64,000 bases of DNA, from NCBI RefSeq assembly GCF_014646815.1, contig NZ_BMNZ01000002.1, positions 561,469-625,468 on the forward strand, in the 5' to 3' direction. The DNA is from Terrabacter tumescens. GTDB lineage: Bacteria > Actinomycetota > Actinomycetes > Actinomycetales > Dermatophilaceae. The notes under the pieces are model-generated. The model was not told the origin of the DNA. It made no database searches and saw nothing but the letters and a program-made list of their open reading frames with translations. The position numbers and the translations under genes were made by a program. This document shows, piece by piece, positions 2,296-64,000 of the stretch; positions within the stretch are counted from its first letter, which is position 1, and each line of letters opens with the position of its first letter.

Positions 2296-2350
2296 GTATG
2301 CCGTCGGGCCGAGAGCGCGGCCCTGTCGCCTCCCGGCCCGAACGGCGTAC
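2296..2350. terminator. Probable bidirectional terminator between convergent genes
   Basis: An imperfect inverted repeat of about 16 bp pairs 2296-2311 with 2334-2350, with one wobble and one bulge, between the GH43 stop and the end of the convergent lipoprotein gene. There is no clear U tract, which is common in high-GC actinobacteria. Its left arm contains one copy of the dispersed word GTATGCCG. Confidence 0.5.
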
Positions 2351-2365
2351 GTCCGCCGGGTTCCG

Positions 2366-3004
2366 TCACGGAGTGGTGGTCGTCGGCTTCGGTGGGGGAG
2401 TCGGCAGCGCGAAGGTCGTCTTCAACGCGCCGTTGACGAGGGTCAGCAGGACGCCGGTCTCCTGGCGGATGACGGCGTAGCGGCTCTGTGCCACGGGCGA
2501 GTTCGCCTGGGCCTCGTTCGAGGCCGCGGCGGCGAACAGCCCGAGCGAGCCCAGCCGTCCGTAGTAGCTCGGGGCGTCGAGCCCCGGCGGCGGTCCGTTG
2601 GCCCCCAGCCGCGCGAGGTGCTGGGAGAGCAGGTCGAGCTGGAGCGCGGCAGCGTTGCCGGACAACGACATCCGGTCGAGCAGCTGCACGTCGGAGACGA
2701 GGTTCGTGTAGTCGGCGAGGGCGACGGGACGGTTGAAGACCGTGCTCGACGTGAGGCTCGGACGCGGCAGCGCGGTCACGGTGACCGCCGGGGTCGCAGT
2801 GACGGTGGCCGTCGTCACGACCGTCGTCGTGGCCGTGACGGTCCGGGTCTCGACCTCCGTGACCGTCACCGTCTGGGTCGGCACCGGCGTGCCGGTGCCT
2901 CCGGGCACCTGGCTCAGCTCGATGGCGGGCTTGCCCGACGAGCACGCCCCGAGCGCGGCGGCAGCCGACAGCGCGAGTGCGGCTGCAACCCTGGCGCGGT
3001 GCAC
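2366..3004 (-). CDS. Putative lipoprotein, Thr/Val-rich stalk
   Basis: 212 residues. The N-terminus is a lipoprotein signal peptide with lipobox LGAC (Cys21), so the mature protein should be lipid-anchored outside the membrane. Residues about 40-80 are almost only Thr and Val (TVTVTEVETRTVTA-like), an extended stalk. The rest is a helical Ala/Leu-rich domain with no motif I recognise, ending in a Pro/Thr tail. It is convergent with the GH43 gene and not obviously in an operon. Function unknown; lipoprotein status is well supported by sequence. Confidence 0.75.
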   Translation of the reverse strand: MHRARVAAALALSAAAALGACSSGKPAIELSQVPGGTGTPVPTQTVTVTEVETRTVTATTTVVTTATVTATPAVTVTALPRPSLTSSTVFNRPVALADYTNLVSDVQLLDRMSLSGNAAALQLDLLSQHLARLGANGPPPGLDAPSYYGRLGSLGLFAAAASNEAQANSPVAQSRYAVIRQETGVLLTLVNGALKTTFALPTPPPKPTTTTP

Positions 3005-3089
3005 GGACGGCTCCGATGCTCGACGTGGACGGTGCGTCGATTGTCATCGCTGGAGGGCCGCAGCGGGAGGGAATGCGCCAATCGTCTGG

Positions 3090-3857
3090 TCACGTGCGCG
3101 CGGCGGCGAGCTGCGGCCTCGTCAGGAAGAGCGCCCCGTCGAGCCGCGCGCCCCGCAGGTCGGCGTCCCGGAGGTCGGCTCCGAGCAGGTCCGCCCACCG
3201 CAGGTCGGCGTCCCGGAGGTCGGCCGCGATGAGCAGCGAGCCGCGCAGGTCCGCGGCCCGCAGGTCGCGTCCGCGCAGGTCGACGCCCACGAGGTCGGCG
3301 CCCGCCCGCACCCGACGGGGCGGCTTCGGTATGCCGTGTCGCCGCCGCTGCCGGTCGCGCTCGGTCGCGCTGACGGTCCGGAGCAGGCCTCCGACGCAGG
3401 AGCGCACGGCGACGAGGTCGACGGCGAGCACCTCGTCCGGCGATCCGGCCGTCGCCGCCGTGACGTCGTCGGCCGCGGCCGCGAGCTCGGCGCGCGTCAC
3501 CTCGTCCGGCGCGAGCGCGAGGGCGTCGCGCAGGTGGGCGAGCATTTCGTGCAGCTGGCGCATGACGGGCAGGACGGCATACATCCTCGACGCGGTGCCG
3601 GGCGCGTCGCGCCAGGACACCCCGCCGAAGGTCACCTGCGAGACCTGCTGCCCGGCACCGAAGCAGTCGAAGGTGACGCAGCCGCGCCAGCCGCCCTCGA
3701 CGAGGCGGTCGTGGATGCCGCACCGGTGGTCGGCGAGCAGGTTGCGGCACGGCTCACCAGCCGGCTTGTCGACGGGGAAGTCCGCCGACCGCGCGAACGG
3801 GAGCGCGACGCAGCACAGGCCGAAGCACCGGGAGCAGTCGGCCTCGAGGCCACTCAC
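3090..3857 (-). CDS. Pentapeptide-repeat protein with N-terminal cysteine cluster
   Basis: 255 residues from a GTG start at 3857 that overlaps the DUF2237 stop as GTGA, indicating translational coupling. The first about 60 residues hold a Cys-rich cluster (CSRCFGLCC, then EPC, HRCGIH, GC, DC) resembling the YkgJ-type CxxCxxxCC metal-binding arrangement. The C-terminal third has repeated A(D/N)LRxADLRxADL pentapeptides forming a right-handed quadrilateral beta-helix. The Cys cluster may bind zinc or an Fe-S cluster; this is inference. Related actinobacterial proteins exist but their role is unknown to me. A long upstream extension of the frame overlaps other genes and is not used. Confidence 0.8.
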   Translation of the reverse strand: MSGLEADCSRCFGLCCVALPFARSADFPVDKPAGEPCRNLLADHRCGIHDRLVEGGWRGCVTFDCFGAGQQVSQVTFGGVSWRDAPGTASRMYAVLPVMRQLHEMLAHLRDALALAPDEVTRAELAAAADDVTAATAGSPDEVLAVDLVAVRSCVGGLLRTVSATERDRQRRRHGIPKPPRRVRAGADLVGVDLRGRDLRAADLRGSLLIAADLRDADLRWADLLGADLRDADLRGARLDGALFLTRPQLAAART

Positions 3858-4249
3858 AGCAGCGAGCTCGGGTCGTCGGGGACGTCGGCGGCATACGACT
3901 GGAGCAGCTGCAGGGGCACGACCTCGAGGGCACGCTCGTGCGTCGCCGCGAGGAAGACCGGCGCGGCGGCGCCGTCCTGGTGCGCCTCGAGCCAGCGGCT
4001 CGCGACGACGCACCACCGGTCGCCCGGGGTCAGCCCCGGGAAGCGCCACTCCGGGCGCGGCGTCACGAGGTCGTAGCCGACGCTGCGCTGGTGCTCGAGG
4101 AACTCGGTGGTGACGACGACGCAGATGGTGTGGCTGCCCCGGTCCTCGGGTCCGGTCGTGCAGTAGCCGTCGCGGTAGAAGCCGGTCACCGGGTCGGTGC
4201 CGCACGCCTCGAGCTCGGTGCCGAGCACGTTCCGTTCCCGCGCTGCCAT
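3854..4249 (-). CDS. DUF2237 family protein
   Basis: 131 residues. The family signature is visible: NVLGTELEACG near the N-terminus, DPVTGFYRDGYC, HTICVVVTTEFLEHQ and GDRWCVVASRWLEA. DUF2237 proteins are small conserved bacterial proteins of unknown biochemical function; the conserved Cys and Gly-Asp-Arg-Trp-Cys segments suggest a ligand-binding or catalytic site, but none is established. Its stop TGA overlaps the GTG of the following pentapeptide-repeat gene, so the two are probably made together. Confidence 0.85.
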   Translation of the reverse strand: MAARERNVLGTELEACGTDPVTGFYRDGYCTTGPEDRGSHTICVVVTTEFLEHQRSVGYDLVTPRPEWRFPGLTPGDRWCVVASRWLEAHQDGAAAPVFLAATHERALEVVPLQLLQSYAADVPDDPSSLL

Positions 4250-5246: not shown

Positions 5247-7423
5247 GCTCGGAGGTGCGGCGCGACGCCGTCGGCGTCCCGCACCTGCGCGCCGACGACG
5301 TCATGGAGCTCGCCCGGCTCCAGGGCCGCATCACCGCCCTCGACCGGGGCTGGCAGGTCGAGCACCACCGCTGGCGCATGGAGGGCCGCACCGCCGAGTA
5401 CGTCGGACCCGACGGACTCCCCTGGGACCGGTTCGCCCGCCAGGTGCGTCTCGAGCCGACCGTGCAGCGCTGCTTCGAGCGGCTCGACCGCGAGACGCGG
5501 ACGTGGCTCACGGCATACGTCGACGGGGTCAACGACACCCTGGCCGAAGGGCTCGCCGGCACTCCCGAGGTCGCCCGGCTCGACCTCGGGGCGTATGCAG
5601 CGTCGCCGCGCCCGTGGGAGCCGTGGACGCCGCTCGGCATCTTCTGGGGGATCCACCTGCTCTTCGGGACCTTCCCGGCGAAGCTGTTCAACGCGCACGT
5701 CGCCGAGCGCCTCGGAGCCCCGGCGCTCGAGCTGCTGAACGCCGAAGGGGTGGAGCGCGCGGCGACCTCGGGCAGCAACGCCTGGGTCGTCGGGGGAGCG
5801 CGCACCGCGAGCGGGCTGCCGCTCGTCGCCGGCGACCCGCACCGCACGATCGAGCTGCCCGGCTGCTACCAGCAGGTGGGTCTGGCCTGCCCCGAGTTCG
5901 ACGTCGTCGGCTTCACCTTCCCCGGCGTGCCCGGGGTGCAGCACTTCGCGCAGACCGGCACCGTCGCGTGGGGCATCACCAACGCGATGGCCGACTACCA
6001 GGACCTGACCGTCGAGTCGCTCGGCCACGTCGGCCACGCGGAGGACGGCTCTCCGCTGCTCAAGGCCAGGGGCATCGACGGGTGGGAGCCCGTGCGGTCG
6101 TCGACGGAGACGGTGCGGGTCCGCGGCGGCGACGACGTGACGGTGCCCGTCGTCGTGACCGCGCGCGGTCCCGTCGTCACCGGGCTCGAGGCCGAGATCG
6201 AGCGCCTCGCCGCCGAGGCGGAGGCGCCCCCGCAGTGGACCGACGAGAGCGTGCAGCCGCGGCGCGCGCACCCTGCCGCACACAGCCTGCGCACGCCGAC
6301 GCACGTCGAGGAGGACCTCGGCTTCGGCGCGCTCCTGCCGCTCCTGCGCTCGCGGACCGTCGCCGACGTCGAGGAGGCGCTCTCGCGGTGGGTCGAGCCG
6401 GTCAACAGCGTCCTCGTCGCCGACGTCTCGGGGCGCATGCGCCACCTCGTCGTCGGCCGGGTGCCGGAGCGCGACGAGATCGGTGGGGTCCTCCCGGTCG
6501 ACGCGTGGGACCCCCGGCACGAGTGGCACGGCTACCGGCGCGGACCGGCACGCGACGTCGACGACGTCATGGTGAGCGCGAACGACCGGGACAGCGGGGG
6601 CGGGCTGGGCGTCGAGTACGCGACGCCGTTCCGCGCCGACCGCATCCGGTCGCTCATCGAGTCGCTGAGCAGCTCGGGCCGTGCTCTCACGGTCGACGAC
6701 TGCGCGGCCATCCACGTCGACACCCTCAACGGGCAGGCCGACCTCATGCGCGAGCTCGTCGAGGCGGCGGACGTGACGGGGCCCGCGGCCGAGGTCCGGG
6801 CGCAGCTGCTCGCGTGGGACGCGCGCAGCGACGCGGGCAGCACCGGTGCCGCGCTCTTCGCCGCGTGGCGGACCGCGCTCGTGCGATGGTTCTCCGAGCA
6901 CCCGCGGCTCGCGGTGCTGCACGAGCCGAGCGGCCACTCACGACTGTTCACCGCGTGGACCGACGTCACGACGCAGATCGGGGCCGGCTGGCACTCGATG
7001 GCGCTGCTCGGTCCGCGGCACGGCATCGACGTGCACGAGGGCGTATGCGTGGCGCTCGATCGCGTTGCCGCGCAGGCGGACTCGCCCACCCCGTGGGGTG
7101 AGCGGCACTGGCTCGATCCCGTCCACGCCCTGTCCGTGTCGGGTCGTGCGCCGCGCGTGCCTCGTGACCCGGTGAGCGGTGACAAGGGCTGCGTGCACGC
7201 CGCCGCGAGCGCGCCCGGCGTCACCGACCACTGCTACGGCGGCGCTGCGGCCCGCTACGTCTGGGACCTCGCCGACCGCGACGCCAGCCGGTGGGTGGTG
7301 CCGTTCGGCGCGAGCGGCGACGCCCGGGACCCGCACTTCGCCGACCAGACCAGTGCCTGGCTGGAGGGGACGCTGCACCCGGTGCGGCCGCTCGCGTCCG
7401 AGGGGTCGGACCGCAAGAGGTAG
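5243..7423 (+). CDS. Penicillin acylase family protein (Ntn hydrolase), apparently cytoplasmic
   Basis: 726 residues from a GTG overlapping the upstream stop. The central motif SGSNAWVVGG carries the autoproteolysis site and N-terminal nucleophile Ser178; upstream lies the spacer/alpha region with LDRGWQVEHHRW and downstream the beta chain with GDPHRTIELPGCYQQVGL and GVPGVQHFAQTGTVAWGITN, all typical of the family. Members hydrolyse amides such as penicillins, cephalosporins, acyl-homoserine lactones or cyclic lipopeptides. No signal peptide is visible although many relatives are exported; the alpha part is short. Substrate unknown. The coupling to a PPOX oxidoreductase is unusual. Confidence 0.88.
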   Translation: MSSEVRRDAVGVPHLRADDVMELARLQGRITALDRGWQVEHHRWRMEGRTAEYVGPDGLPWDRFARQVRLEPTVQRCFERLDRETRTWLTAYVDGVNDTLAEGLAGTPEVARLDLGAYAASPRPWEPWTPLGIFWGIHLLFGTFPAKLFNAHVAERLGAPALELLNAEGVERAATSGSNAWVVGGARTASGLPLVAGDPHRTIELPGCYQQVGLACPEFDVVGFTFPGVPGVQHFAQTGTVAWGITNAMADYQDLTVESLGHVGHAEDGSPLLKARGIDGWEPVRSSTETVRVRGGDDVTVPVVVTARGPVVTGLEAEIERLAAEAEAPPQWTDESVQPRRAHPAAHSLRTPTHVEEDLGFGALLPLLRSRTVADVEEALSRWVEPVNSVLVADVSGRMRHLVVGRVPERDEIGGVLPVDAWDPRHEWHGYRRGPARDVDDVMVSANDRDSGGGLGVEYATPFRADRIRSLIESLSSSGRALTVDDCAAIHVDTLNGQADLMRELVEAADVTGPAAEVRAQLLAWDARSDAGSTGAALFAAWRTALVRWFSEHPRLAVLHEPSGHSRLFTAWTDVTTQIGAGWHSMALLGPRHGIDVHEGVCVALDRVAAQADSPTPWGERHWLDPVHALSVSGRAPRVPRDPVSGDKGCVHAAASAPGVTDHCYGGAAARYVWDLADRDASRWVVPFGASGDARDPHFADQTSAWLEGTLHPVRPLASEGSDRKR

Positions 7424-10753: not shown

Positions 10754-11533
10754 GTGCGCATGTCCTCTCGAGATGACGGTGCGGTGGACGTCCGGCGACG
10801 TTTCGGCGGCGGTCCGGTGACGGGCGCCCTGTCGGTGGTCGTGGTCGTCGCGGTCGTCGTCGTCCTGCTCTTCGTCGTGCGTGACGCCGCCTACCGGGCG
10901 ACCGCCTCAGGCGCCGTGGCGCTGCCCTCCGTCGTCGGTGGGCTGCTCGAGGTCATCGGTGAGCTGGGGCTCGTCGTCCTCGCCGGGGTAGCCGTCCTGC
11001 TCACCTGGCGCGCTCGTTCGCAGGGCCTCGAGCACCTCGCCGTCGCCGCCGTGGCCGCGGTCTCGACGGTCGCGGCCTACGTGCTCAGCGAGGTCGTCAA
11101 GGGCTTCGTGCGTGAGGAGCGGCCGTGCCGCACGCTGTCGGTGCACACCGTCGCGGCGTGCCCGGCGTCCGGGGACTGGTCCTGGCCCAGCAACCACGCC
11201 ACGATCGCGGGCTCCCTCGCGACGGCGATCGTCGTGCTGGCCCCGATGTGGTGGCGCCTGGCCGTCCCGCTCGCCCTCGCCGTCGGCGCGTCCCGGGTGC
11301 TGACCGGCGCGCACTACTGGCACGACGTCGTCGCCGGCCTCGCCGTCGGGGTTCTCGTCGTGTGGTTCGGCACGTGGGCCCTGGCCCCGACCGCGCACCG
11401 GCTGCTCCAGCGGTCGGTCGCGTCCGGGTCGCCGCGCTGGCGTCGTGCCGTCGGCCAGGGCTACGAGCCGAGGTATGCCGCCAGCGACCTCCCCGACGAG
11501 GGCGCGGACGGCGGGACGGCCGACCCGAGCTGA
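10754..11533 (+). CDS. PAP2-family lipid/isoprenyl phosphatase, membrane
   Basis: 259 residues (GTG 10754; ATG 10760 also possible). Multiple transmembrane segments surround the three PAP2 motifs: KGFVREERP, SWPSNHATIAGS and SRVLTGAHYWHDVVAG, containing the catalytic His and Asp. Such enzymes dephosphorylate undecaprenyl pyrophosphate or phosphatidate at the membrane. An insertion with two Cys (PCRTLSVHTVAACPASG) between motifs 1 and 2 is typical of actinobacterial members. The gene stands alone and is followed by a 14-bp tandem array. Confidence 0.88.
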   Translation: MRMSSRDDGAVDVRRRFGGGPVTGALSVVVVVAVVVVLLFVVRDAAYRATASGAVALPSVVGGLLEVIGELGLVVLAGVAVLLTWRARSQGLEHLAVAAVAAVSTVAAYVLSEVVKGFVREERPCRTLSVHTVAACPASGDWSWPSNHATIAGSLATAIVVLAPMWWRLAVPLALAVGASRVLTGAHYWHDVVAGLAVGVLVVWFGTWALAPTAHRLLQRSVASGSPRWRRAVGQGYEPRYAASDLPDEGADGGTADPS

Positions 11534-12239: not shown

Positions 12240-13582
12240 CACGCGGCATACCGGCGAAAGCAGAGAGGCTCGGACCGGCGCCCACCTCCTCAACGGAAGG
12301 ACTCGGAACCCAATGCCACTCGGTCTCATCGCCCTCGCTCTCGGGGGCTTCGGCATCGGCCTGACGGAGTTCGTCATCGCCGGTCTCATCAGCACGGTCG
12401 CCACCGACATGGGGGTCTCCATCCCCGTCGCGGGCTACCTCATCAGCGGCTACGCGCTCGCCGTCGTCGTCGGCGCGCTGGGCCTCACGCCGGTGCTCGG
12501 CGCCTGGCGCCCCAAGCGCGCGCTGCTCGCCCTCATGGTCCTCTTCATCGTCGGCAACACCCTGTCGGCCGTCGCCACCGGCTACGGCATGCTCCTCGCC
12601 GGTCGGGTCGTCGCGGCGCTCGCGCACGGCGCGTTCTTCGGCATCGGCTCGGTGCTGGCCGCCTCGCTCGTGCCGGCCGACCGCAAGGCCGGCGCCATCT
12701 CGATCATGTTCGGTGGGCTCACGCTCGCCAACGTCCTCGGCGTCCCGCTCGGGACCTTCGTCGGCCAGCAGTGGGGCTGGCGGGCGACCTTCGCCGTCAT
12801 CGCCGTCGTCGGGGTCGTCGCCGCGGCCGGCATCGCTGCGCTCGTCCCGGACGCCACCGCCGAGACGCAGTCCGGTGGGTCGGCGCAGTCGCCGCAGTCG
12901 GCGGGACGGGCCGCCGGCCTGCGCGCCGAGCTCGCCGCCTTCCGCACCGGCCAGGTCTGGTTCTCGCTCGCGATGACCGTCCTCGTCTTCGGCGGCATGT
13001 TCGGCGCCTTCATGTACGTCGAGCCGCTCCTGACCCGCGTCACCGGCTTCGACGGGTCTGCGGTGCCGTGGCTGCTCGTCCTCTTCGGTGTCGGCCTCTT
13101 CGCCGGCAACCTGCTCGGCGGTCGCTGGGCCGACCGCGCCCTGGCCCGCACGCTCGTCGTGCTGACGCTCGCGCTCGCCGTCTCGCTCGTCGCCTTCGCG
13201 CTGCTCTCCGGCAGCCAGGTCGGCTCGGCGGCCATGCTGCTGGCCATGGGCTTCTTCGGCTTCGCCGCCGTGCCCGGCCTGCAGATGCGGGTGCTCGGCC
13301 ACGCTGCCGGAGCGCCGACGATGGCCTCCTCGGCCAACATCGCGGCCTTCAACGTCGGCAACTTCCTCGGCGTCTGGATCTCGGGCCTGGCCATCAGCGC
13401 CGGCCTCGGTTGGACCTCGCCGCTGTGGGTCGGCGCGGGCTTCGCGTCGCTGGGACTCGTCGTGCTCCTCGCCGCCACGGCAGCCGAGCGCCGGACGGCA
13501 CCGGGGCCGACGGAGGCTGCTGGCGCCGAGCACCCCGAGCCGCTGGACGCCCCCGCCCCGTCGCCTGACACGGGTTCGAGGT

Positions 13583-13640: not shown

Positions 13641-15299
<1,659 letters not shown>

Positions 15300-15869: not shown

Positions 15870-15913
15870 GGTGGTGCAGTGTCGGCCCGTGCGCCACGCG
15901 ATATCAGCCGGAC

Positions 15914-19307: not shown

Positions 19308-19319
19308 ATCGGAGGAACC

Positions 19320-45454: not shown

Positions 45455-45498
45455 CGTCGGCTCCTCGGGGCGCTGCGGCAGTCAGCTCAGAGTACGGC

Positions 45499-51529: not shown

Positions 51530-52262
51530 CCGACGACGAGGCGAGATCCGGCCCGCGGGCCGGGGCCGTCGCCTGCTCAAGGCCGTCGGGTACGGGCTCC
51601 TCTTCGCCGTCCCCGTCACCGTCCTCGCCTTCGTCGTGCGCGAGAAGTTCCTGCCCGTCATCGAGCTCGACGAGCGGCTCATCATCGCCGCCACCGACAT
51701 CACCCGCGACAACCCGTGGCTGAAGTCGACGCTTCTCGTGTGGCAGGAGATCACGCAGCCGAAGTGGGTCTACATCGTCGCCTCGGCGGTCTGCCTCGTG
51801 CTGTGGCGCCGCCACCGCGAGCTCGCGACGCGCTGCCTCTGGGCGTTCATCACCCTGATGGTGTCGTGGAACCTCCAGCTCGTCCTCAAGGAGATCGTGC
51901 GCCGTGCGCGCCCGGTCGTCAGTGACCCGGTCTCGCACGCGCCGGGCTACAGCTTCCCGTCGGGGCACGTCGCCTGCGCGGCCGCGATCGCGACGATCAT
52001 GGCGCTGCTGCTATGGCCGGTGCTCACCCCGGTGGCCCGCCGGTGGCTGGTCGGCGGCCTCACGGCATACGTCCTCCTCACCGCGCTCGACCGGGTCTTC
52101 CTCGGCGTGCACTACCCCTCAGACGTCCTCGCCGGGATCATCTTCGGCGCCGGACTCGGCACGGCGTCCTACGTCGGCTACCTCGGGTGGAACCCCGGTC
52201 CGGACGACTCCCCTCCGCCGGAGGGTGAGACCGGGCCCGAGTCATCGAAAGGCAGCACGTGA
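51522..52262 (+). CDS. PAP2-family phosphatase (first of two in lipid-kinase operon)
   Basis: 246 residues from TTG 51522, which overlaps the kinase stop by 8 bases. PAP2 motifs are intact: KEIVRRARPVVSD, YSFPSGHVACAAAIAT and DRVFLGVHYPSDVLAG; five to six membrane helices. It likely dephosphorylates phosphatidate, prenyl diphosphate or similar lipids outside the membrane. Its stop overlaps the GTG of the next PAP2 gene. Confidence 0.9.
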   Translation: MTDRRRGEIRPAGRGRRLLKAVGYGLLFAVPVTVLAFVVREKFLPVIELDERLIIAATDITRDNPWLKSTLLVWQEITQPKWVYIVASAVCLVLWRRHRELATRCLWAFITLMVSWNLQLVLKEIVRRARPVVSDPVSHAPGYSFPSGHVACAAAIATIMALLLWPVLTPVARRWLVGGLTAYVLLTALDRVFLGVHYPSDVLAGIIFGAGLGTASYVGYLGWNPGPDDSPPPEGETGPESSKGST

Positions 52263-52990
52263 ACCACACCTTCGTCCACCGCTACGAGATCGACCCCTCA
52301 CGACCAACGGTCGGGTCGGCGCTGCGCGACTTCGCACTGCGTGTCCTCGCACCCGCAGTGATCCTGTTCGGCGCGATCGTCGGTCTCGGCTTCCTCATCA
52401 TGGGCCCGCTCGGCGGCCTCCCCGCGGAGGAGGACATCAGCAAGTCCGTCGCCGCCGGCCGCACGTCGCTCATGAACTCGGTGACCGCCGTGTGGTCGCA
52501 CATCGGCAACACCGAGATCATCATCGGGGTCTGCGTCATCGCCGTGGCCCTCATCTGGTGGCGTACCAAGCAGTGGTGGTATGCCGTCATCCCCGCCATC
52601 GCGATCGCCATGCAGGCCAGCGTCTTCGTGGCCGCCACGACCATCGCCGACCGCAAGCGACCGACGGTGGAGCACCTCGACCCCGCGCCGCCGACGTCGA
52701 GCTACCCCAGCGGTCACATGGGTGCCGCGACGGCGCTCTACCTGACCTTCGCGCTCATGGCGCAGCGGATCGAGACGGTGTGGCTGCGCCGGCTCGTCAC
52801 CGTGGTCTGTGCCGTCATCCCGCTGCTCGTCGGCTACGCCCGCCTCTACCGTGGCATGCACCACCTCGTCGACATCCTCGTCGGGCTCGTCAACGGCGTC
52901 GTGTGCGCGCTGCTCGCCTGGAACTACCTGCGGCGCAAGACCGCGAGCGGCCGCGTCACGGGTGCGGCTCGCGAGGCCATGTCGCGCTGA
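52259..52990 (+). CDS. PAP2-family phosphatase (second in operon)
   Basis: 243 residues from GTG 52259 overlapping the previous stop (AAAGG upstream). Motifs: TTIADRKRPTVEHLD, SSYPSGHMGAATALY and YARLYRGMHHLVDILVG, with His and Asp in place. The N-terminal half is more hydrophobic than in its neighbour and the two are only distantly alike, so they are probably not a recent duplication. A 13-bp hairpin terminator follows the operon. Confidence 0.9.
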   Translation: MNHTFVHRYEIDPSRPTVGSALRDFALRVLAPAVILFGAIVGLGFLIMGPLGGLPAEEDISKSVAAGRTSLMNSVTAVWSHIGNTEIIIGVCVIAVALIWWRTKQWWYAVIPAIAIAMQASVFVAATTIADRKRPTVEHLDPAPPTSSYPSGHMGAATALYLTFALMAQRIETVWLRRLVTVVCAVIPLLVGYARLYRGMHHLVDILVGLVNGVVCALLAWNYLRRKTASGRVTGAAREAMSR

Positions 52991-54180: not shown

Positions 54181-54313
54181 GGTGGGATCCTTCGAGGTCG
54201 TGGTGCTGCTGACCTCTCCAGCGTCGTTCTGAGGCGGGCCCTCCCACATCGGGAGGATGACGTATGCCGTGTCGCCGGCTACCTCAGATCGGCGCGCTCC
54301 ATGACCCGACGTC

Positions 54314-55156
54314 TCAGGGCAGGTCGAGCACGCGCCGGATCTCGGGCCAGGCCTGCTCTCCGAGGGCGCGGTCCGCCGCCTCGGTGCCGCCGCGCGCCAT
54401 GGGCCGGCCGCCGGACACGACGGGCTCGCCGGGCAGGACGACGCGGTGGCCGGCCTCCGGGTGGGTGACGAGCGTCGTCGGCAGGTCGAGGGCAGCCCGT
54501 CGCGCCTGCACGGCGCGGGCGAAGGCCAGCGACGGCCACACCTGGTCGTCGCCTCCCGCGACGAGGAGCACGTCGCCGAAGAAGCGCTCGACGGGGATCG
54601 TCGCGGAGCTCACTCGGTCGGCGTGCGTGCGCAGGCTCTGCGCGTAGACGGGGGCGTATGCCGGGGGCTCCCCGGGTGCCTCCGCGTCGTCGTCGTAGGG
54701 CACGAAGGCGACGGGCTCCCCGCCCCGGCTCCACGACGAGTGCTGCGGTCGCAGCGCGCCGTCGGGTCCCGCGCCGACGTTGGCCCACGCCACGTGGCTC
54801 GGCGCGAGCGCGACGACGGCGTCGACAGCCGGATCGCCCACGGCATACAGCAAAAAGGCCTCGGCCGTCTTCGAGGAACCCAGGAGCACCACACGGTCGC
54901 AGCGCTCGGCGAGCGACGCGACGGCGGGCGCGAAGGCCTCGAGCGGGTACTCCCAGATGCCGGCCGGCTGGCCGGGACCGCCGAACCAGCGGTAGGTCAG
55001 GGCGGCCGACACCCCGGCGGCGGCCAGCAGTCGCGCGCGGTCGCGCTCGACGCGGCCGCTCGAGCCGGACAGCACGAGGACGCCGGTGCCGTTGCCGCCG
55101 CCTTCGGGCTCGACGAGCACGCCGTCGTGCTCGCGCGGCGTCTCACGCAGTCCCAC
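54314..55156 (-). CDS. BAAT/acyl-CoA thioester hydrolase-like alpha/beta hydrolase
   Basis: 280 residues from GTG 55156, three bases after the helicase stop, so it may be cotranscribed with it. Features: VLVLSGSSGRVERDRARLLAAAG, RWFGGPGQPAGIWEYPLE, nucleophile elbow VVLLGSSKTAEAFLL (Ser95 in G-S-S-K) and C-terminal THPEAGHRVVLPGEP with the His. The G-x-S-K-x-x-E pattern is that of the BAAT C-terminal family, which handles acyl-CoA thioesters or peptide-like acyl groups. Substrate unknown. Confidence 0.85.
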   Translation of the reverse strand: MGLRETPREHDGVLVEPEGGGNGTGVLVLSGSSGRVERDRARLLAAAGVSAALTYRWFGGPGQPAGIWEYPLEAFAPAVASLAERCDRVVLLGSSKTAEAFLLYAVGDPAVDAVVALAPSHVAWANVGAGPDGALRPQHSSWSRGGEPVAFVPYDDDAEAPGEPPAYAPVYAQSLRTHADRVSSATIPVERFFGDVLLVAGGDDQVWPSLAFARAVQARRAALDLPTTLVTHPEAGHRVVLPGEPVVSGGRPMARGGTEAADRALGEQAWPEIRRVLDLP

Positions 55157-55158
55157 GC

Positions 55159-57705
55159 TCAGCCACCCAGCCTCTCGAAGCCGGTGACCGTGAGCACGGC
55201 GGCGCCGACGTCGTCGCTCGCCTCGAGGTCGACGACGGCTGTGATGCCCCAGTCCTTGTCCTCGTCGGGGTCGACGACGACCTGGCGCAGGCGCCACTCA
55301 CCCGGCACCTTGTCGACCTGGAGCAGCGCGGGTGAGCGGGCGCCCTGGTCGGTCGCGATGGCGTCGTGGTCGTCGTAGTAGGCGCCGAGCGCGTCGTTCC
55401 AGGCCTGGGCGTCCATGACGACCTTCTGCGGTGGGTCGGTCAGCTCGGCGACGCGGGCCTCGAGCTCGCCGAGCGCCTCCCACTCGTCGCGCGAGGCCAG
55501 CTCGACCCGGTGGAACATCGCGTTGCGGATCATCACGGTGAAGGCCCGCTCGTTGGCCGTGATCGGCCGCGCGGGCGGGGCGACGTCGGTCTGCGCGAGC
55601 ACGGCGTCGCTCGGGTTGACGAGGTCCTCCCACTCGTCGAGCAGGCTCGAGTCGGTCTGGCGCACCAGCTCGCCCAGCCACTCGATGATGTCCTCGAGCT
55701 CCTCGGTGCGGTGGCTCTCGGGCACGGTGCGGCGCAGCGCCCGGTAGGCGTCGGTGAGGTAGCGCAGGACGAGGCCCTCCGAGCGGGACAGGCCGTAGTA
55801 GGAGACGAACTCGTTGAACGTCATGCCGCGCTCGTACATCTCGCGCACGACCGACTTCGGCGACAGGGCGTCCTGCGAGATCCACGGGTGGCTCTGGCGG
55901 TAGGCCGCGAGCGTCACCTCGAGCAGGTCGGCGAGCGGCTTGGGCCAGGTGACCTCCTCGAGCCGCTCCATGCGCTCCTCGTACTCGATGCCGTCCAGCT
56001 TCATGGCGGCCACGGCCTCGCCGCGGGCCTTGAACTCCTGGGCCCAGAGCACCTGGCGCGGGTCCTCGAGGATCGCCTCGATGACCGAGACGAGGTCCTT
56101 GGCGTAGGTGTCGCTCTCGGGGTCGAGCGTGTCCATGACGGCGAGCGCGAAGGGCGCGAGCGGCTGGTTGAGGGCGAAGTCGCGCTGCAGGTCGATGGTC
56201 AGGGCGTGCCGGCGGCCGGACTCCTCGGCCGTGGCGAGGCGCTCGACGACCCCGGAGGTGAGCAGCTCCTTGGCGAGCACGAGGGCGTGCCGCTGCAGGC
56301 GCCGCTGGTCCTTGGGCTCGTGGTGGTTGTCCGAGAGCAGCCGGTGCGCGTGGGCGACCGGGTTGCCCTCTCGGGCAAGGAGGTTGACGAGCATCGAGTG
56401 CGAGACCTTGAGGCGCGGCTGGAGCGGCTCGGGCTCGGCGGCGATGAGCCGCTCGAACGTCTCCTCCGACCAGTTGACGAAGCCGTCGGGGGCCTTCTTG
56501 CGCTGGATCTTCTTCTGCTTCTTGGGGTCGTCGCCGGCCTTCTCGACGGCGCGCAGGTTGTCGATGACGTGCTCCGGCGCCTGGGCGACGACCCAGCCGC
56601 GGGCGTCGAAGCCGGCGCGACCGGCACGTCCGACGATCTGGTGGAACTCGCGCGCCTTGAGCGTGCGCTGCTTCGTCCCGTCGAACTTCGTCAGGCCGGT
56701 GAGCAGCACGGTGCGGATCGGCACGTTGATGCCGACGCCGAGGGTGTCGGTGCCGCAGATGACCTTGAGCAGGCCGTCCTGGGCGAGCTGCTCGACGAGG
56801 CGGCGGTACTTCGGCAGCATGCCGGCGTGGTGCACGCCGATGCCGTGCCGCACGAGCCGCGACAGGGTGCGCCCGAAGCCGGCCCCGAAGCGGAAGCCGC
56901 CGATGCGCGTGGCGATGGCCTCGCGCTCCTCGCGGGTCGTGATCTTGACGGCCATGAGGCTCTGCGCGCGTTCGAGGGCGGCCGCCTGCGTGAAGTGCAC
57001 GACGTAGACGGGCGCGCGGTCCTTCTCGAGGAGCTCCTCGATGGTCTCGTGGAGGGGGGTGACGGCATACGAGAACTCGAGGGGCACGGGGCGCTCGGTG
57101 CCGGTGATGACGGCGGTCGAGCGGCCGGTGCGCCGGGTCAGGTCGTCCTTGAACATCGTGACGTCGCCGAGCGTGGCCGACATGAGCACGAACTGCGCCT
57201 GCGGCAGCTCGAGGATCGGCACCTGCCACGCCCATCCGCGGTCGGGCTCGGAGTAGAAGTGGAACTCGTCCATGACGACGAGGCCGATGTCGGCCGAGCT
57301 GCCCTCTCGCAGAGCGAGGTTCGCGAGGATCTCGGCGGTGCAGCAGATGATCGGCGCGTCGGCGTTGACCGACGCGTCACCGGTGATCATGCCGACGTTG
57401 TCGGCACCGAACTGCTCGCACAGCGCGAAGAACTTCTCGGAGACGAGGGCCTTGATCGGCGCGGTGTAGAAGCTGACGCGGTCGTCGGAGAGGGCCGCGA
57501 GGTGCGCGGCGGTGGCGACGAGGGACTTCCCCGACCCGGTCGGCGTCGACAGGATGAGGTTGCTGCCGCTCAGGATCTCGAGGAACGCCTCCTCCTGGTG
57601 CGGGTAGAGCGTGAGCCCCCGCTCGGTCGTCCACTCGGTGAAGACCTCGTAGAGGCCGTCGGGATCGGGATCCCGCGGGATGCGCTCGCTGAGGTTCTTC
57701 GTCAC
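55159..57705 (-). CDS. SKI2-like DEAD/DEAH-box RNA helicase with DUF3516
   Basis: 848 residues from GTG 57705. Walker A STPTGSGKS (54-61) and DEFH box VVMDEFHFY (146-149) with SATLGD, GIGVHHAGMLP, QIVGRAGRAGFD define the SKI2/HelY helicase core. A long C-terminal region, including RKKAPDGFVNWSEETFERLI, corresponds to DUF3516, typical of actinobacterial HelY-like proteins. It should unwind structured RNA in turnover. An independent second frame over this gene is a shadow. The BAAT-like gene follows by three bases. Confidence 0.92.
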   Translation of the reverse strand: MTKNLSERIPRDPDPDGLYEVFTEWTTERGLTLYPHQEEAFLEILSGSNLILSTPTGSGKSLVATAAHLAALSDDRVSFYTAPIKALVSEKFFALCEQFGADNVGMITGDASVNADAPIICCTAEILANLALREGSSADIGLVVMDEFHFYSEPDRGWAWQVPILELPQAQFVLMSATLGDVTMFKDDLTRRTGRSTAVITGTERPVPLEFSYAVTPLHETIEELLEKDRAPVYVVHFTQAAALERAQSLMAVKITTREEREAIATRIGGFRFGAGFGRTLSRLVRHGIGVHHAGMLPKYRRLVEQLAQDGLLKVICGTDTLGVGINVPIRTVLLTGLTKFDGTKQRTLKAREFHQIVGRAGRAGFDARGWVVAQAPEHVIDNLRAVEKAGDDPKKQKKIQRKKAPDGFVNWSEETFERLIAAEPEPLQPRLKVSHSMLVNLLAREGNPVAHAHRLLSDNHHEPKDQRRLQRHALVLAKELLTSGVVERLATAEESGRRHALTIDLQRDFALNQPLAPFALAVMDTLDPESDTYAKDLVSVIEAILEDPRQVLWAQEFKARGEAVAAMKLDGIEYEERMERLEEVTWPKPLADLLEVTLAAYRQSHPWISQDALSPKSVVREMYERGMTFNEFVSYYGLSRSEGLVLRYLTDAYRALRRTVPESHRTEELEDIIEWLGELVRQTDSSLLDEWEDLVNPSDAVLAQTDVAPPARPITANERAFTVMIRNAMFHRVELASRDEWEALGELEARVAELTDPPQKVVMDAQAWNDALGAYYDDHDAIATDQGARSPALLQVDKVPGEWRLRQVVVDPDEDKDWGITAVVDLEASDDVGAAVLTVTGFERLGG

Positions 57706-57749
57706 CTCGTGAGTATGCCGTCCGGTGGCCTGTCGCTCCCAACCGCCGG

Positions 57750-59777: not shown

Positions 59778-60619
59778 CGGCGGGGGCCGTCGTCCACGAC
59801 GACGTTCTCGCAGCGACCGAGGCCCTCGACCTCGGTCACGACCTTCTGGCCCGCGGTGAGGTAGCGGGCCGGCTTGCGCGCGTGCCCGACGCCGCCGGGC
59901 GTCCCGGTGGCGATGAGGTCGCCGGGGCGGAGCGTGACCATCGTCGAGACGTACTCGACGAGCGCGACGGGGTCGAAGAGCAGGTCGCCGGTGCTGTCCT
60001 CCTGCACGACCTCGCCGTCGATCTCGGTGCGGATCGCGAGCGTCGGGCGCACGCCACCGGGCAGCTCGTCGGGCGTGACGAGCCACGGGCCGACCGGGGT
60101 CGTCGCCTCCCAGTTCTTGCCCTGGAGCCACTCCCTGGTGCGGAACTGCCAGTCGCGGGCCGTGATGTCGTTGAGGGTCGCGAAGCCGGCGATCGCGGCC
60201 TCCGCCTCGGCCGTCGTCGCCCGCCGCACGGTCGCGCCGATGACGACGGCGAGCTCGCACTCCCAGTCGAACTCGTCGGTCTCGACGGGCCGCTGGATGT
60301 CGTCGTGAGCGCCGATGAGCGTGTCGGCGAACTTGCTGAACAGCGTGGGGAACTCGGGCAGGTCGCGGCCCATCTCGAGGATGTGGTTGCGGTAGTTGAG
60401 CCCGACGCAGACGACCTTCCCGGGGCGGGTGACGACGGGGGCGTATGCCGCGTCGCCGAGGTCCACGGCCGCGCCGGCCGCCGTCTCGGCCGAGTCCCGC
60501 CAACCGGGCTGGGAGAGAAGGGACCCCACGTCGGAGGCTCCGAGGCGAGTCGCCGTCGTGCCGTCGACGCGCACCGCCTCGGTCGTGCCGTCGGCGTTGC
60601 GGAGGGTGGCGAGCTTCAT
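59774..60619 (-). CDS. Fumarylpyruvate hydrolase (FAH family)
   Basis: 281 residues. The FAH-family metal site is visible: FDWECELAVVIG with Glu120 and Glu122, and TLNDITARDWQ with Asp151; VCVGLNYRNHILEMGRD and GDLIATGTPGGVGHARKP are family signatures. It hydrolyses fumarylpyruvate to fumarate and pyruvate. Both neighbours overlap it by four bases (ATGA), so the three central pathway enzymes are translated in sequence. Confidence 0.93.
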   Translation of the reverse strand: MKLATLRNADGTTEAVRVDGTTATRLGASDVGSLLSQPGWRDSAETAAGAAVDLGDAAYAPVVTRPGKVVCVGLNYRNHILEMGRDLPEFPTLFSKFADTLIGAHDDIQRPVETDEFDWECELAVVIGATVRRATTAEAEAAIAGFATLNDITARDWQFRTREWLQGKNWEATTPVGPWLVTPDELPGGVRPTLAIRTEIDGEVVQEDSTGDLLFDPVALVEYVSTMVTLRPGDLIATGTPGGVGHARKPARYLTAGQKVVTEVEGLGRCENVVVDDGPRR

Positions 60620-61776
60620 CGGGACAGTCCTTCGTGAGGTGCGGAGACAGAGGTGTGGGCAAGGTTGAGCGCCTCGAAGATCGGCGAGTCGCTGAAGCGG
60701 AAGAGGTCCAGCGCGCCGGAGTCGGAGTCGGAGGCGGATGCCTCGGAGCGGATCGACAACGGCTGCCACGACGGCACGACGAAGAGGTCGCCCCGCGTGA
60801 CGCTCCACGTCGTGTCGCCGACGGTCACCGTGCCGGCGCCGTCGAAGACCTGGAAGACGGACGAGCCGACCTCCTGGCGAGGCGCGGTCTCCGCGCCGCT
60901 GCGCACCCGGTGGAACTCGGTGCGGATCGTCGGGAGGACGTCACCGCCGTTGGTGGGGTTGGTGAAGCGGACCGCCGCGTGACCCGGCTCGACGGTGGCG
61001 GCATACCCCTCGTCCTCGAGGTCGAGCTGGTCCTGGAGGGCGAGGTCGGTGTCGGCCCAGCGGTAGGCGAGCAGCGGGCTCGCCGGCATCGGGCCGGGCA
61101 CCGAGACGGGTCGCAGGCCCGGGTGGCCCCACAGTCGCTGCGACCGCGAGCGCTCGGGGGTGACCCGCTCGGCGTCGGAGATCTCGTCGCGGCCGAACTC
61201 GAAGAACTGGGACTCCGTGTAGTACTGGAAGGGGATGTCGAGCCCGTCGATCCACGCCATCGGCTTCGCGGCGGCGTTGTGGTGGGCGTGCAGGTTCCAG
61301 CCGGCCTGCGGGAGGAAGTCGCCGCGGTTCATCGGCACGGGGTCCCGGCCGACGACGGTCCACACGGCGTCGCCCTCGACGACGAAGCGGAACGCGTTCT
61401 GCGTGTGCCGGTGCTCGGGGGCGTCCTCGCCGGGCATGAGGTACTGGATCGCGGCCCAGAGGGTCGGCGTCGCGAAGGGACGGCCCCCGAGCGACGGGTT
61501 GGCCAGGGCGATGGCCCGGCGCTCGCCGCCGCGTCCGACCGGCACGAGGTGCCCCGCCCGGTCGGCGAGGTCGAGCAGGGTCTGCCACTGCCAGCGGTGC
61601 GGCGTGGCCTTGCTCTGCGGGTGGGCCGGCATGAGGTCGCCGATCTCCGTCCACAGCGGCACGAGGAGCTCGTCCTCGAAGCCGCGGTAGAGCGCCTCGA
61701 GCTCGGGGGTGGGGGCGGGCTGGTCGGGGGAGTCGACGGCCTCGATCCGCACGGGCGAGGTGGCTGCCTGGGTCAT
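60616..61776 (-). CDS. Gentisate 1,2-dioxygenase
   Basis: 386 residues. Bicupin enzyme with the iron site APEHRHTQNAFRFVVEG (His122, His124) and the following GWNLHAHHNA (His163, His165) in the first cupin; the second cupin has SSVFQVFDGAGTVTVGD. It cleaves gentisate to maleylpyruvate with molecular oxygen. The stop overlaps the next gene's ATG. It is preceded 26 bases away by the transporter gene. Confidence 0.93.
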   Translation of the reverse strand: MTQAATSPVRIEAVDSPDQPAPTPELEALYRGFEDELLVPLWTEIGDLMPAHPQSKATPHRWQWQTLLDLADRAGHLVPVGRGGERRAIALANPSLGGRPFATPTLWAAIQYLMPGEDAPEHRHTQNAFRFVVEGDAVWTVVGRDPVPMNRGDFLPQAGWNLHAHHNAAAKPMAWIDGLDIPFQYYTESQFFEFGRDEISDAERVTPERSRSQRLWGHPGLRPVSVPGPMPASPLLAYRWADTDLALQDQLDLEDEGYAATVEPGHAAVRFTNPTNGGDVLPTIRTEFHRVRSGAETAPRQEVGSSVFQVFDGAGTVTVGDTTWSVTRGDLFVVPSWQPLSIRSEASASDSDSGALDLFRFSDSPIFEALNLAHTSVSAPHEGLSR

Positions 61777-61802: not shown

Positions 61803-63155
61803 TCAGTGGACGAGGACGTCGGCGACGGGCCGCGCCGCGACGGCGGGCTTCGTCACGACGGCCGTCACGGCGAGCAGGACCGCGGCGAGGCCGGCCGCGA
61901 TGGAGAAGGCGAGGAAGTTGCTGCCGACCCCGAGGTCGGCGTCGAGGAGCAGGCCGCCGACCTGCGGTGCGAGGACGGCGCCGATGCGGCCGACCCCGAG
62001 GGCGAAGCCGAGCGACGTGCCGCGCAGGGTGGGCGGGTAGTGCGTCGCGACGGCGGCGATGATGAGGCACTGCGTGCCGTGGGTGCCGACCCCGGCGAGG
62101 ATGAGCGCGGCATACACCGGCGCGACGTCGCTCGGATAGGTCAGCAGGTAGGCCAGGGCCAGGGCGGCCACGGCCGCGGCGACGACCGAGCTGCGCAGCG
62201 GGCCGAACCGCACGCCGGCCCAAGCGGTGACGACCGAGCCGATGACGGCGCCGAGGTTGAGGGCGAGGAGGAAGGCGAGTGGCTTGCCCATGTCGAAGCG
62301 CGGGTCGGAGCCCATGAGCTTGGGCAGCCACGTGCCGAGGCCGTACCACGCGAAGAGCGTGGCGACGGTGGCCGCGGCGAACAGGACGGTCGGCCGGAGG
62401 AACCGGCCGCGCAGGATGGTGCGGAAGCCGGGAGCGTGCTGCTCGGTGCTGTGGTCGCTCGGGTCGTGGACGAGGCCGAACTTCGCCTCGACCGCCTTGC
62501 CCTCGGCCACCCGGCCGTGGGCCCGCAGCCATGTCGGGGACTCCGGGAGCAGCAGGTAGCACAGCGGCAGGAGGACGAGCACGGCCGCGAAGGCGACGGC
62601 ATACATCGAGCGCCAGCCGTAGGCGGGGAGCAGCCACAGGCCGAGGAGCGCGGCGACGGACCCGCCGATCGGCACCCCCGACATCATCATCGTGGAGATG
62701 GCCGACCTGTGCTTGCGCGAGACGAACTCCGCCGTCAGGGCGTTGGCCGACGGCACGAGGCCGCCGAGGCCGAGGCCCGCGAGGAAGCGGAAGCCGCCGA
62801 AGACCTCGGCGCTCGGCGCGAAGGCGCAGAGCGCGGTGAAGGCCGAGAACCACAGGGTGGCCCAGAGGATCGTGCGGCGGCGGCCGAGCCGGTCCGAGAG
62901 CAGGCCCGCACCGAGCGCGCCGACGAGCATGCCGGCGAAGGCGAGGCTGCCGATGAAGCCGGCGGTGGTGGGGGTGAGGTCCCAGCCCTTCTCCTTGAGG
63001 AGGCTGGGGAGGGTCGTCCCGTAGACGATGAGGTCGTAGCCGTCGAAGACGACGATGAGCCAGCAGAGGAGCGTCACGAGCCACGCGGGCCGGTTCGCGC
63101 TGCCGGTGGCGCGGTCGGCCAGGGGCCGGTTCTGGGTGGGGGGCGTCGTTGCCAT
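61803..63155 (-). CDS. MFS aromatic-acid:proton symporter (AAHS family)
   Basis: 450 residues with 12 membrane helices. Motif LIVVFDGYDLIVYGTTLPSLL in helix 1 contains the DGxD sequence characteristic of AAHS aromatic-acid permeases, and GLLSDRLGRRRTILW is MFS motif A. It likely imports 3-hydroxybenzoate or gentisate, because it heads the catabolic operon and diverges from an IclR regulator. Confidence 0.92.
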   Translation of the reverse strand: MATTPPTQNRPLADRATGSANRPAWLVTLLCWLIVVFDGYDLIVYGTTLPSLLKEKGWDLTPTTAGFIGSLAFAGMLVGALGAGLLSDRLGRRRTILWATLWFSAFTALCAFAPSAEVFGGFRFLAGLGLGGLVPSANALTAEFVSRKHRSAISTMMMSGVPIGGSVAALLGLWLLPAYGWRSMYAVAFAAVLVLLPLCYLLLPESPTWLRAHGRVAEGKAVEAKFGLVHDPSDHSTEQHAPGFRTILRGRFLRPTVLFAAATVATLFAWYGLGTWLPKLMGSDPRFDMGKPLAFLLALNLGAVIGSVVTAWAGVRFGPLRSSVVAAAVAALALAYLLTYPSDVAPVYAALILAGVGTHGTQCLIIAAVATHYPPTLRGTSLGFALGVGRIGAVLAPQVGGLLLDADLGVGSNFLAFSIAAGLAAVLLAVTAVVTKPAVAARPVADVLVH

Positions 63156-63173
63156 GGGGACGACTGTGAACTA

Positions 63174-63214
63174 GGTTCGCCATGACGGAATAGAAGATTC
63201 TGCTATGAGGAACC
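63174..63214. promoter_or_regulatory. Candidate IclR operator between the transporter and regulator genes
   Basis: A central dyad CGGAAT-agaag-ATTCTG (63186-63202, 5 of 6 paired) is nested inside GGTTC (63174-63178) and GAACC (63210-63214) arms. It fills the 60-base spacer between divergent genes, the expected place for IclR-type control. Confidence 0.55.
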
Positions 63215-63215
63215 A

Positions 63216-64000
63216 ATGGCCCAGGACCGCGCCCTGAAGAACCGCCCCCAGTACGCCCTGACGAGCGTCGACCACGCCCTGCGCCTTGCCGTGATGCTCC
63301 AGGTCGAGGGCCCGCTCAGCGTCTCCGACGCCGCCGAGCGTCTCGGTGTGGCCCGCTCGACCGCGCACCGGCTGCTGACGATGCTCGTCTACCGCGACTT
63401 CGCGCGGCAGGGCGACGACCGCCGCTACCACGCCGGCCCGGTCATCTCGCTGACCGCGGACGCCCAGTCCCGCACCGCCCTGCTGCGCACCATCGCCATG
63501 CCGCACCTGCACGCCCTCGTCGGGCGGCTCGGCGAGTCGGCCAACCTGCTCGTCCTCGCCGGCGACTACGCCCGCTTCATCGGCTCGGTCGAGAGCACGC
63601 AGGCGCTGCGCGTCGGCAACCGCGAGGGCATGGTCTTCCCGGCGCACCTGACCTCAGGGGGCAAGCTCATGCTCGCGGACCTCACTGTCGACGAGCGGGC
63701 CGAGCTGTATGCCGTGGAGCGCTGGCGAGGTCGGTCGGACGAGCGTCCCGACGTGGGTGCGCTCGAGCGCGAGCTCGACGTCGTGCGCGAGCGCGGCTTC
63801 GCGATCAACAAGGACCGCACCGAGAGCGGCGTGACGGCGGTCGGGCGCGGCGTGCGCGTCGGTGACCGCGTCGGGGCGGCGGTCACCGTCTCGATGCCGA
63901 CGGTGCGCTTCGACGAGTCACGCCTCGTCGACGTCGTCACCGCACTCGCCCTCACGGCCCGCGACATCGAGCACGACCTGCACGCGGCGCTACGCGTCGA
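63216..64000 (+). CDS. IclR-family transcriptional regulator (3' end outside window)
   Basis: 261 residues are visible, open to the end of the window. The winged helix (SVSDAAERLGVARSTAHRLLTMLVYRDF) is followed by the IclR effector domain (LVLAGDYARFIGSVEST, VFPAHLTSGGKLMLADL, GFAINKDRTESGVTAVGRGVR). It diverges from the gentisate/3-hydroxybenzoate operon and probably controls it in response to the aromatic acid. Confidence 0.92.
   Translation, partial: MAQDRALKNRPQYALTSVDHALRLAVMLQVEGPLSVSDAAERLGVARSTAHRLLTMLVYRDFARQGDDRRYHAGPVISLTADAQSRTALLRTIAMPHLHALVGRLGESANLLVLAGDYARFIGSVESTQALRVGNREGMVFPAHLTSGGKLMLADLTVDERAELYAVERWRGRSDERPDVGALERELDVVRERGFAINKDRTESGVTAVGRGVRVGDRVGAAVTVSMPTVRFDESRLVDVVTALALTARDIEHDLHAALRV

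Follow-up and report, generated by a model that had tools for sequence, protein, structure and literature searches.

In a 64-kb stretch of the Terrabacter tumescens genome (G000:C2:561469-625468, hereafter the window), the short word CGGCATAC, read as GTATGCCG on the other strand, is repeated far beyond expectation, and it is iterated likewise throughout the genome and in many other genera of the family, which is called Intrasporangiaceae in NCBI and, as we take it, Dermatophilaceae in GTDB. Comparison of sequences leads us to propose that CGGCATAC is a DNA uptake-enhancing sequence common to many genera of this family and works like the known uptake words, namely the DNA uptake sequence (DUS) of Neisseria and the uptake signal sequence (USS) of Haemophilus; we put the probability of this at about 0.78. 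The proposal is well supported by the restriction of the word to the family, by a dialect, by hairpins and by conservation, and more weakly by its scarcity in accessory and phage DNA.

The window contains 38 exact copies, 20 forward and 18 reverse, against a composition expectation of 2.1, which agrees with a sequence-only reading of this DNA that had estimated about 38 against about two, alike on both strands. The genome-wide count which that reading had proposed as a check also showed an excess: the Terrabacter genome (4.71 Mb, with 72% GC in the DNA analyzed here) carries 2,358 copies, 1200 and 1158 by strand, or about 0.5 copies per kb over both strands, against 199 (88 and 111) of the reversed word used as a control. 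In a 464-kb sample consisting of the window and C1:1-400000, CGGCATAC lay far above low-order Markov expectation and topped all over-represented 8-mers at orders 2 and 3 (239 copies against 7.2 and 11.6 expected), while at order 4 its expectation was 63 and it ranked second behind the overlapping ACGGCATA. Since sub-words are enriched along with the word, the signal vanishes into the higher orders, where expectation rises to 171 (order 5) and 236 (order 6). The 237 spacings in this sample averaged 1.94 kb with a maximum of 8.9 kb, and even spacing was set aside, as the coefficient of variation of 0.88 is barely below random. Two word-free gaps had been pointed out in the window. The second, between the sites at 40109 and 47605, stands, and the first runs from 19,186 to 27,680 (8.5 kb) rather than ending at 25.8 kb; the lengths of both are ordinary for this spacing distribution.

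Genes were predicted by a purpose-made codon-usage gene finder, which is the source of all window genes named here in place of a curated annotation and which placed 418 genes over 90% of the 464 kb. The enrichment of CGGCATAC is not a codon effect. Within genes, 179 copies were present against 7.4 after synonymous-codon shuffling, and within spacers 56 against 0.79 expected at Markov order 1, corresponding to densities of 0.44 and 1.18 per kb, respectively. All six combinations of frame and direction are used; among the 183 sites touching a gene, 111 read Tyr-Ala and 41 Ala-Tyr. A codon-pair or composition artefact would explain why most in-gene copies encode these two residue pairs, but it is contradicted by the shuffling and spacer counts and by the absence of the word in sister genera, and can practically be dismissed. 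The earlier judgement that codon-pair preference alone is insufficient was thus sound, the enrichment being strongest in spacers and surviving synonymous shuffling. In the window, 33 sites lie in predicted genes and 5 in spacers (2296, 12244, 15913, 54262 and 57713). Four of these spacer sites had been located correctly before; the one given as 57712 begins at 57713, and 32667, also taken as a spacer site, falls inside a predicted gene. The assignment of in-gene copies to Ala-Tyr or Tyr-Ala holds for 32 of 33, the copy at 3329 being read as Gly-Ile. The copies of the word in the window, followed by one segment that lacks it, are as follows.

2296..2303, minus strand, spacer
3329..3336, minus strand, in gene 3090-3857(-), Gly-Ile
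3575..3582, plus strand, in gene 3090-3857(-), Tyr-Ala
3889..3896, plus strand, in gene 3854-4228(-), Tyr-Ala
5511..5518, plus strand, in gene 5243-7423(+), Ala-Tyr
11473..11480, minus strand, in gene 10784-11533(+), Tyr-Ala
12244..12251, plus strand, spacer
13766..13773, plus strand, in gene 13641-15299(-), Tyr-Ala
15913..15920, plus strand, spacer
16512..16519, plus strand, in gene 15989-16597(+), Ala-Tyr
18469..18476, plus strand, in gene 18195-19307(+), Ala-Tyr
19178..19185, minus strand, in gene 18195-19307(+), Tyr-Ala
27681..27688, plus strand, in gene 25223-30343(+) (GH92), Ala-Tyr
29488..29495, minus strand, in gene 25223-30343(+) (GH92), Tyr-Ala
30739..30746, plus strand, in gene 30440-30850(-), Tyr-Ala
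32525..32532, plus strand, in gene 31860-32783(-), Tyr-Ala
32667..32674, minus strand, in gene 31860-32783(-), Ala-Tyr
34065..34072, minus strand, in gene 32731-34284(+), Tyr-Ala
36408..36415, minus strand, in gene 35976-36704(-), Ala-Tyr
37923..37930, minus strand, in gene 37416-39002(-), Ala-Tyr
38156..38163, plus strand, in gene 37416-39002(-), Tyr-Ala
39807..39814, minus strand, in gene 39031-40356(+), Tyr-Ala
40109..40116, plus strand, in gene 39031-40356(+), Ala-Tyr
47605..47612, minus strand, in gene 47372-48106(+), Tyr-Ala, inverted partner at 47667
47667..47674, plus strand, in gene 47372-48106(+), Ala-Tyr, inverted partner at 47605
48780..48787, minus strand, in gene 48103-49356(+), Tyr-Ala
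52063..52070, plus strand, in gene 51522-52262(+), Ala-Tyr
52579..52586, minus strand, in gene 52259-52990(+), Tyr-Ala
54262..54269, minus strand, spacer
54656..54663, minus strand, in gene 54314-55156(-), Ala-Tyr, word in 0 of 4 aligned relatives
54841..54848, plus strand, in gene 54314-55156(-), Tyr-Ala
57063..57070, plus strand, in gene 55159-57705(-) (DEAD/DUF3516 helicase), Tyr-Ala
57713..57720, minus strand, spacer
60443..60450, minus strand, in gene 59774-60619(-), Ala-Tyr
60999..61006, plus strand, in gene 60616-61776(-), Tyr-Ala
62108..62115, plus strand, in gene 61803-63155(-), Tyr-Ala
62597..62604, plus strand, in gene 61803-63155(-), Tyr-Ala
63707..63714, minus strand, in gene 63216-63998(+), Tyr-Ala
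42200..45700 (approximate), no strand, accessory segment without the word, not aligning with the syntenic DNA of any of four Terrabacter relatives

Around the core, the 56 spacer sites of the Terrabacter sample favour A at -3, -1 and +11, C at -4, +10 and +13, G at -6, +8 and +14, and T at +12 and +16 (position 0 being the first base of the word). These contextual preferences span about -11 to +16 and are partly common to ten other genera, in which 477 sites share with Terrabacter preferences including A at -11, G at -6 and T at +12, +15 and +16; at -1 the other genera favour G and the Terrabacter genome A. Six inverted pairs of the word occur in the spacers of the 464 kb, and they form terminator-like predicted hairpins that begin 11-72 bp past a stop codon, with folding energies computed without a shuffled control.

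The core itself is sharp: among 24 single-base variants, the highest reached about 3.2-fold over third-order expectation (12 against 3.7), and eight were somewhat raised. A sharp 8-bp core would also suit a methyltransferase, restriction or repair word, the enzyme lifting the frequency of its word by biased mutation, and the HIP1 octamer of cyanobacteria, highly iterated through genes and spacers as CGGCATAC is, offers a precedent. HIP1 is a palindrome, unlike the word here, and so cannot show an orientation rule of the kind described below. To our knowledge, restriction targets are usually avoided rather than enriched. The low counts of the single-base variants speak against such an enzyme, and mutational bias would not yield exclusion between same-orientation copies over 1 kb; we therefore consider this explanation very improbable.

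The distribution of the word was assessed in 149 genomes of 53 genera, a sample drawn from the larger group of family genomes. CGGCATAC reached at least 0.1 per kb in 83 of the 149, lay at 0.03-0.1 per kb in 16 and was lower in 50. The genus Terrabacter has 1,423-2,358 copies per genome in 9 genomes, our own included. Some genera are split: in g26, G033 has 1,062 copies, G102 3,681 and G076 only 19, and in g36, G129 has 37 copies and the four others 1,251-1,660. Of 297 genomes sampled across the order, 24 belong to Terrabacter's family; among the 273 from the other 19 families none reached 0.1 per kb, and counts there differed from the reversed-word control by no more than about four-fold, compared with 12-fold in the Terrabacter genome. 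The comparison with related genera suggested by the sequence-only reading thus showed a word that is frequent in many family members and below 0.1 per kb in every genome drawn from 19 other families. Among 80 named loci, 38 were counted. The word-rich ones include Terrabacter, Terracoccus, Humibacillus, Intrasporangium oryzae, Knoellia, Flexivirga and Ornithinimicrobium, as well as Phycicoccus elongatus and Phycicoccus sp. Soil802, and zero copies were found in loci including three of Janibacter, that of Intrasporangium flavum and that of Phycicoccus jejuensis.

An unbiased word scan (29 genomes sampled at 80 kb each, plus 60 kb from G075 and 84 kb from the Terrabacter genome), followed by the synonymous-shuffle and spacer test to part dialects from codon effects, revealed CGGCATCC, a one-base dialect of CGGCATAC. 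In G034, CGGCATCC occurred 68 times in genes against 10.3 and 17 times in spacers against 0.5. Genome-wide it numbers 3,949 in G034, 3,816 in G024, 3,838 in G072, 4,480 in G109 and 3,619 in G123. G052 and G086 carry both dialects, with 2,195 and 2,099 copies of CGGCATCC and 1,217 and 1,189 of CGGCATAC, respectively, and belong to the same genus (g45) as G109 and G123; in the remaining 142 family genomes CGGCATCC numbers 241 to 1,336. The shuffled-codon test of CGGCATCC was made in G034, and the other six genomes are assigned by counts. Within the genes of G011, each of the four possible bases at position 3 gives an enriched word (50, 39, 20 and 19 against 4.9, 4.1, 2.0 and 2.6). Two further candidates were rejected as dialects: CGGCGTAC, enriched in G031, G048 and G088, is taken to be a codon-pair effect, since it ranks high in genes and not in spacers, and CCGCATCG in G065 is likewise high in genes and not in spacers.

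Copies of the word are conserved at orthologous positions. Four Terrabacter relatives were compared, each over syntenic DNA that covers 13-16 own sites, and the word was exact in 48 of 61 comparisons, where about 20 of 61 would be expected from flank identity and 35-44% for 8-mers of the same composition. Between 34.9 and 57.7 kb, 12 sites fall in the 14,945 bp that align in three or four relatives, and 2 fall in DNA aligned in one or two. The second word-free gap includes the segment unaligned in four other Terrabacter genomes, which encodes a DUF2786/DUF7168 protein (42239-43489). A partly aligned gene at 45499-47190, whose product has 563 aa, gave no Pfam match.

The orientation of neighbouring copies follows a rule. 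A pair correlation was computed from 971 sites in 11 genomes and 17 named loci, part of these stretches being orthologous comEC neighbourhoods and hence not fully independent. For same-orientation pairs the ratio to expectation was 0.22-0.29 below 300 bp, 0.64-0.77 from there to 1,200 bp and 0.91-1.09 at longer distances; for opposite-orientation pairs it was 0.89-1.41 throughout, except for divergent pairs below 80 bp (2.2-3.0). When labels were shuffled within stretches for pairs at 80-1,200 bp, the Terrabacter genome had 30 same and 69 opposite against a null of 49.1 same (SD 5.0), and the ten other genera 107 same and 188 opposite against 140.8 (SD 8.2), with 0 of 1,000 shuffles as low in either case; at 1,200-3,000 bp the exclusion was weak, equally low values arising in 45 and 152 of 1,000 shuffles. 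Beyond 80 bp, neighbours in the Terrabacter genome are opposite in 152 of 237 cases (0.64), compared with a mean of 0.48 (SD 0.04, highest 0.645) for 125 similarly abundant control words, and the dialect of G034 alternates too (55 opposite, 26 same). Over distances up to about 1.2 kb, a copy thus excludes others of its own orientation but not opposite ones, which suggests directional use, and each copy may therefore act on one side over roughly 1 kb.

Directional use is also what a Chi-like recombination hotspot would predict, at which an end-processing helicase-nuclease (RecBCD, AddAB or AdnAB) reads the word one-sidedly and switches to recombination. Such a reader would account for exclusion among same-orientation copies only, and the word, like Chi, is an octamer with a directional behaviour, here inferred from spacing; it is also conserved, genome-wide and scarce in one phage. 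However, the strand check proposed by the sequence-only reading gave no strand bias, with 99 against 102 copies along 400 kb and across changes of GC skew. RecC, present in 59 of 149 family genomes and in 1 of 9 Terrabacter genomes (G007), is absent from the Terrabacter genome studied here, and was found in 25 of 83 word-bearing against 28 of 50 word-free genomes, kinship being ignored. Moreover, the word is family-restricted with a dialect, and its copy numbers drop to background in sister genera. Chi, as far as we know, shows neither enrichment between genes nor terminator hairpins nor so wide a contextual motif. RecBCD-Chi itself is contradicted by the lack of strand skew and by the absence of RecC here. 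A Chi-like role for another nuclease is improbable, yet it stays the main rival of the uptake reading because it explains the directional exclusion likewise.

The alternation of neighbouring words and the equal use of both strands could also point to a chromosome-organising site, with a nucleoid or bridging protein binding pairs of opposite words. Nevertheless, beyond 80 bp opposite pairs reach only 0.89-1.30 of expectation and the chief signal is the depletion of same-orientation pairs; the accessory segment and the phage hold none or few copies; and loss and dialect change between congeners fit a structural chromosome protein poorly, which makes this role decidedly improbable. Of the candidates named before, an uptake or recombination word, a methylation or restriction target and a nucleoid-protein site, uptake is thus well supported and the nucleoid site disfavoured.

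The hosts of the word encode DNA-import machinery. ComEC was found in 145 of 149 family genomes and the HHH_3 domain, carried by ComEA, in 146 of 149, word-bearing or not. ComEA adjoins ComEC in 30 of 31 loci examined, and comEA and comEC are adjacent in the Terrabacter genome, whose ComEC, in line with the assignment to this genus, shares 79% identity over its best segment with the ComEC of Terrabacter sp. Root85. The exception is G057 (L099), whose ComEC has no adjoining ComEA and an HHH_3 match about 29 kb away. Apart from ComEA, the Terrabacter genome has one more very strong HHH_3 match, at G000:C6:116013-116207, and similarly scoring counterparts of it occur in the other Terrabacter genomes and in five further genomes. 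The Tad/Flp locus of this genome encodes RcpC, a TadA-type ATPase and T2SSF proteins according to Pfam, two Flp pilins (PF04964), and proteins that we take from their sequences to be TadE-like and TadZ-like. Micrococcus luteus, an actinobacterium, is reported to transform by means of ComEA, ComEC and Flp pili (PMC6370729).

Taken together, CGGCATAC fits DUS and USS better than any other class that we considered, and the word system is probably a third, independent counterpart of the two. As with these, copies are numerous on both strands, independent of codons and enriched in spacers, inverted pairs form predicted hairpins, dialects and orthologous conservation are seen, and the host encodes ComEA, ComEC and a pilus, which is Tad/Flp and not type IVa (T4a). 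The DUS of Neisseriaceae, whose receptor is ComP, is described as a short non-palindromic word with thousands of copies on both strands, inverted pairs serving as terminators, genus dialects, a mixed-dialect genome (the two-dialect one of Simonsiella) and genera without the word (PMC3630211, PMC2397512). Against DUS, the word here stands out by its occurrence in Actinomycetota at 72% GC, its 8-bp core, the rarity of PilM, the same-orientation exclusion and a receptor that is hypothetical. The letters ATGCCGTC are present in both the Neisseria 12-mer and a common extended form of the Terrabacter word, which we take as coincidence. With the USS of Pasteurellaceae, as described in PMC7811141, the word shares a core with contextual preferences across a few helical turns and opposite pairs at gene ends, for which terminator-like hairpins have been reported as for DUS (PMC2397512, PMC7811141). 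The mean spacings are also similar, about 1 kb for USS (PMC7811141) and 1.9 kb here. The word differs in the core and in scattered GC and AT positions where USS has two AT tracts.

We propose that DNA from the environment would be recognized at the word by a surface receptor, probably in the Tad/Flp pilus or one related to it, after which ComEA and ComEC would carry the bound DNA inward; for uptake sequences elsewhere, ComP is a known and ComN a predicted receptor. Because chromosomal recombination would replace mutated copies and spread new ones, the word would build up by drive and come to mark the DNA of kin. A more specific proposal, to which we give somewhat less than an even chance, is that the word is polar and belongs to a third, independent uptake system, that of Tad-pilus actinobacteria, in which it would set the side or strand of DNA entry. 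Each copy would then serve about 1 kb on one side, and same-orientation neighbours would therefore be redundant. The same proposal, at the same strength, includes a dialect change in progress, seemingly caught mid-course within the genus g45.

Several observations weigh against the uptake reading. Exclusion between same-orientation copies would not be expected if uptake were orientation-independent, as is reported for H. influenzae (PMC1939737), and it is either a difference from that species or a property of such words. Of the 11 word-bearing genomes, G124 shows no alternation (14 opposite, 17 same), and the dialect of G034 has few contextual preferences, chiefly C at -4 and G at +8. The scarcity in accessory and phage DNA comes from small samples: the DNA between 34.9 and 57.7 kb aligned in no relative has 0 sites in 4,230 bp, and one 49-kb Tetrasphaera jenkinsii phage has 2 copies against 0.6-0.9 from its own composition. 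Being near-universal with or without the word in the 149 genomes, comEA and comEC do not separate the two classes. Among genomes at least 90% complete, with the middle class excluded save for dialect genomes and kinship ignored, Flp pilins were found in 46 of the 75 that have the word or its dialect and in 13 of the 45 that lack both, and two or fewer T2SSF in 1 of 75 against 7 of 45, neither separation being clean. PilM, a marker of the T4a pilus, occurs in only 5 of 149 family genomes, and the T4a pilus was dropped as the receptor platform. No gene in the comEC neighbourhoods of 31 genomes separated word-bearing from word-free members, and no candidate receptor emerged, as none of the genes tested tracks the presence or absence of the word. 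A narrow literature search gave no report of natural transformation in Terrabacter's family.

Self-recognition of DNA by an iterated word has been described for two Gram-negative families (PMC5031613), and a search of titles and abstract openings, with subscription papers and bioRxiv thinly covered, returned no uptake sequence in Actinobacteria. If the uptake reading is true, the word would add a third case from a different phylum, spread over many genera and with one clear dialect pair or more; such tags would then evolve repeatedly, and the long-standing question of whether drive or selection maintains them would gain independent replicates. A sharp, testable prediction on the route of DNA into the cell follows from the orientation rule. 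Placing the word in donor DNA may also render these bacteria transformable, and among them are the Tetrasphaera relatives that remove phosphate in wastewater plants (PMC9123174).

Other enriched words were encountered as well. CCCCTTCG is enriched in the genes of Janibacter melonis (G045) and of G130, with clear spacer enrichment only in G045, and does not alternate in orientation (opposite to same 15:18 in G045 and 19:16 in G130). In the same genomes CCCCCTTCG is about 16-fold over third-order Markov expectation (36 against 2.3 in L079-L082 of G045 and 32 against 2.0 in L083-L086 of G130); showing no orientation alternation, it may be unrelated to uptake. In G076 (L067-L070), whose genus has two other drawn members that carry CGGCATAC, CGCCGTAC and the palindrome CCGTACGG, with which it is entangled, are both over-represented inside genes and strongly so in spacers. 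The 8-mer CGGCATAC also occurs inside adapter-like primer sequences printed in papers, which are presumably of Illumina origin. Adapter contamination was ruled out as a source of the copies, because their flanks are varied and they are conserved between genomes and read in the frames of genes. Further over-represented words in L001-L020 and the window are CTCCCCC/GGGGGAG and AGCGCCT/AGGCGCT.

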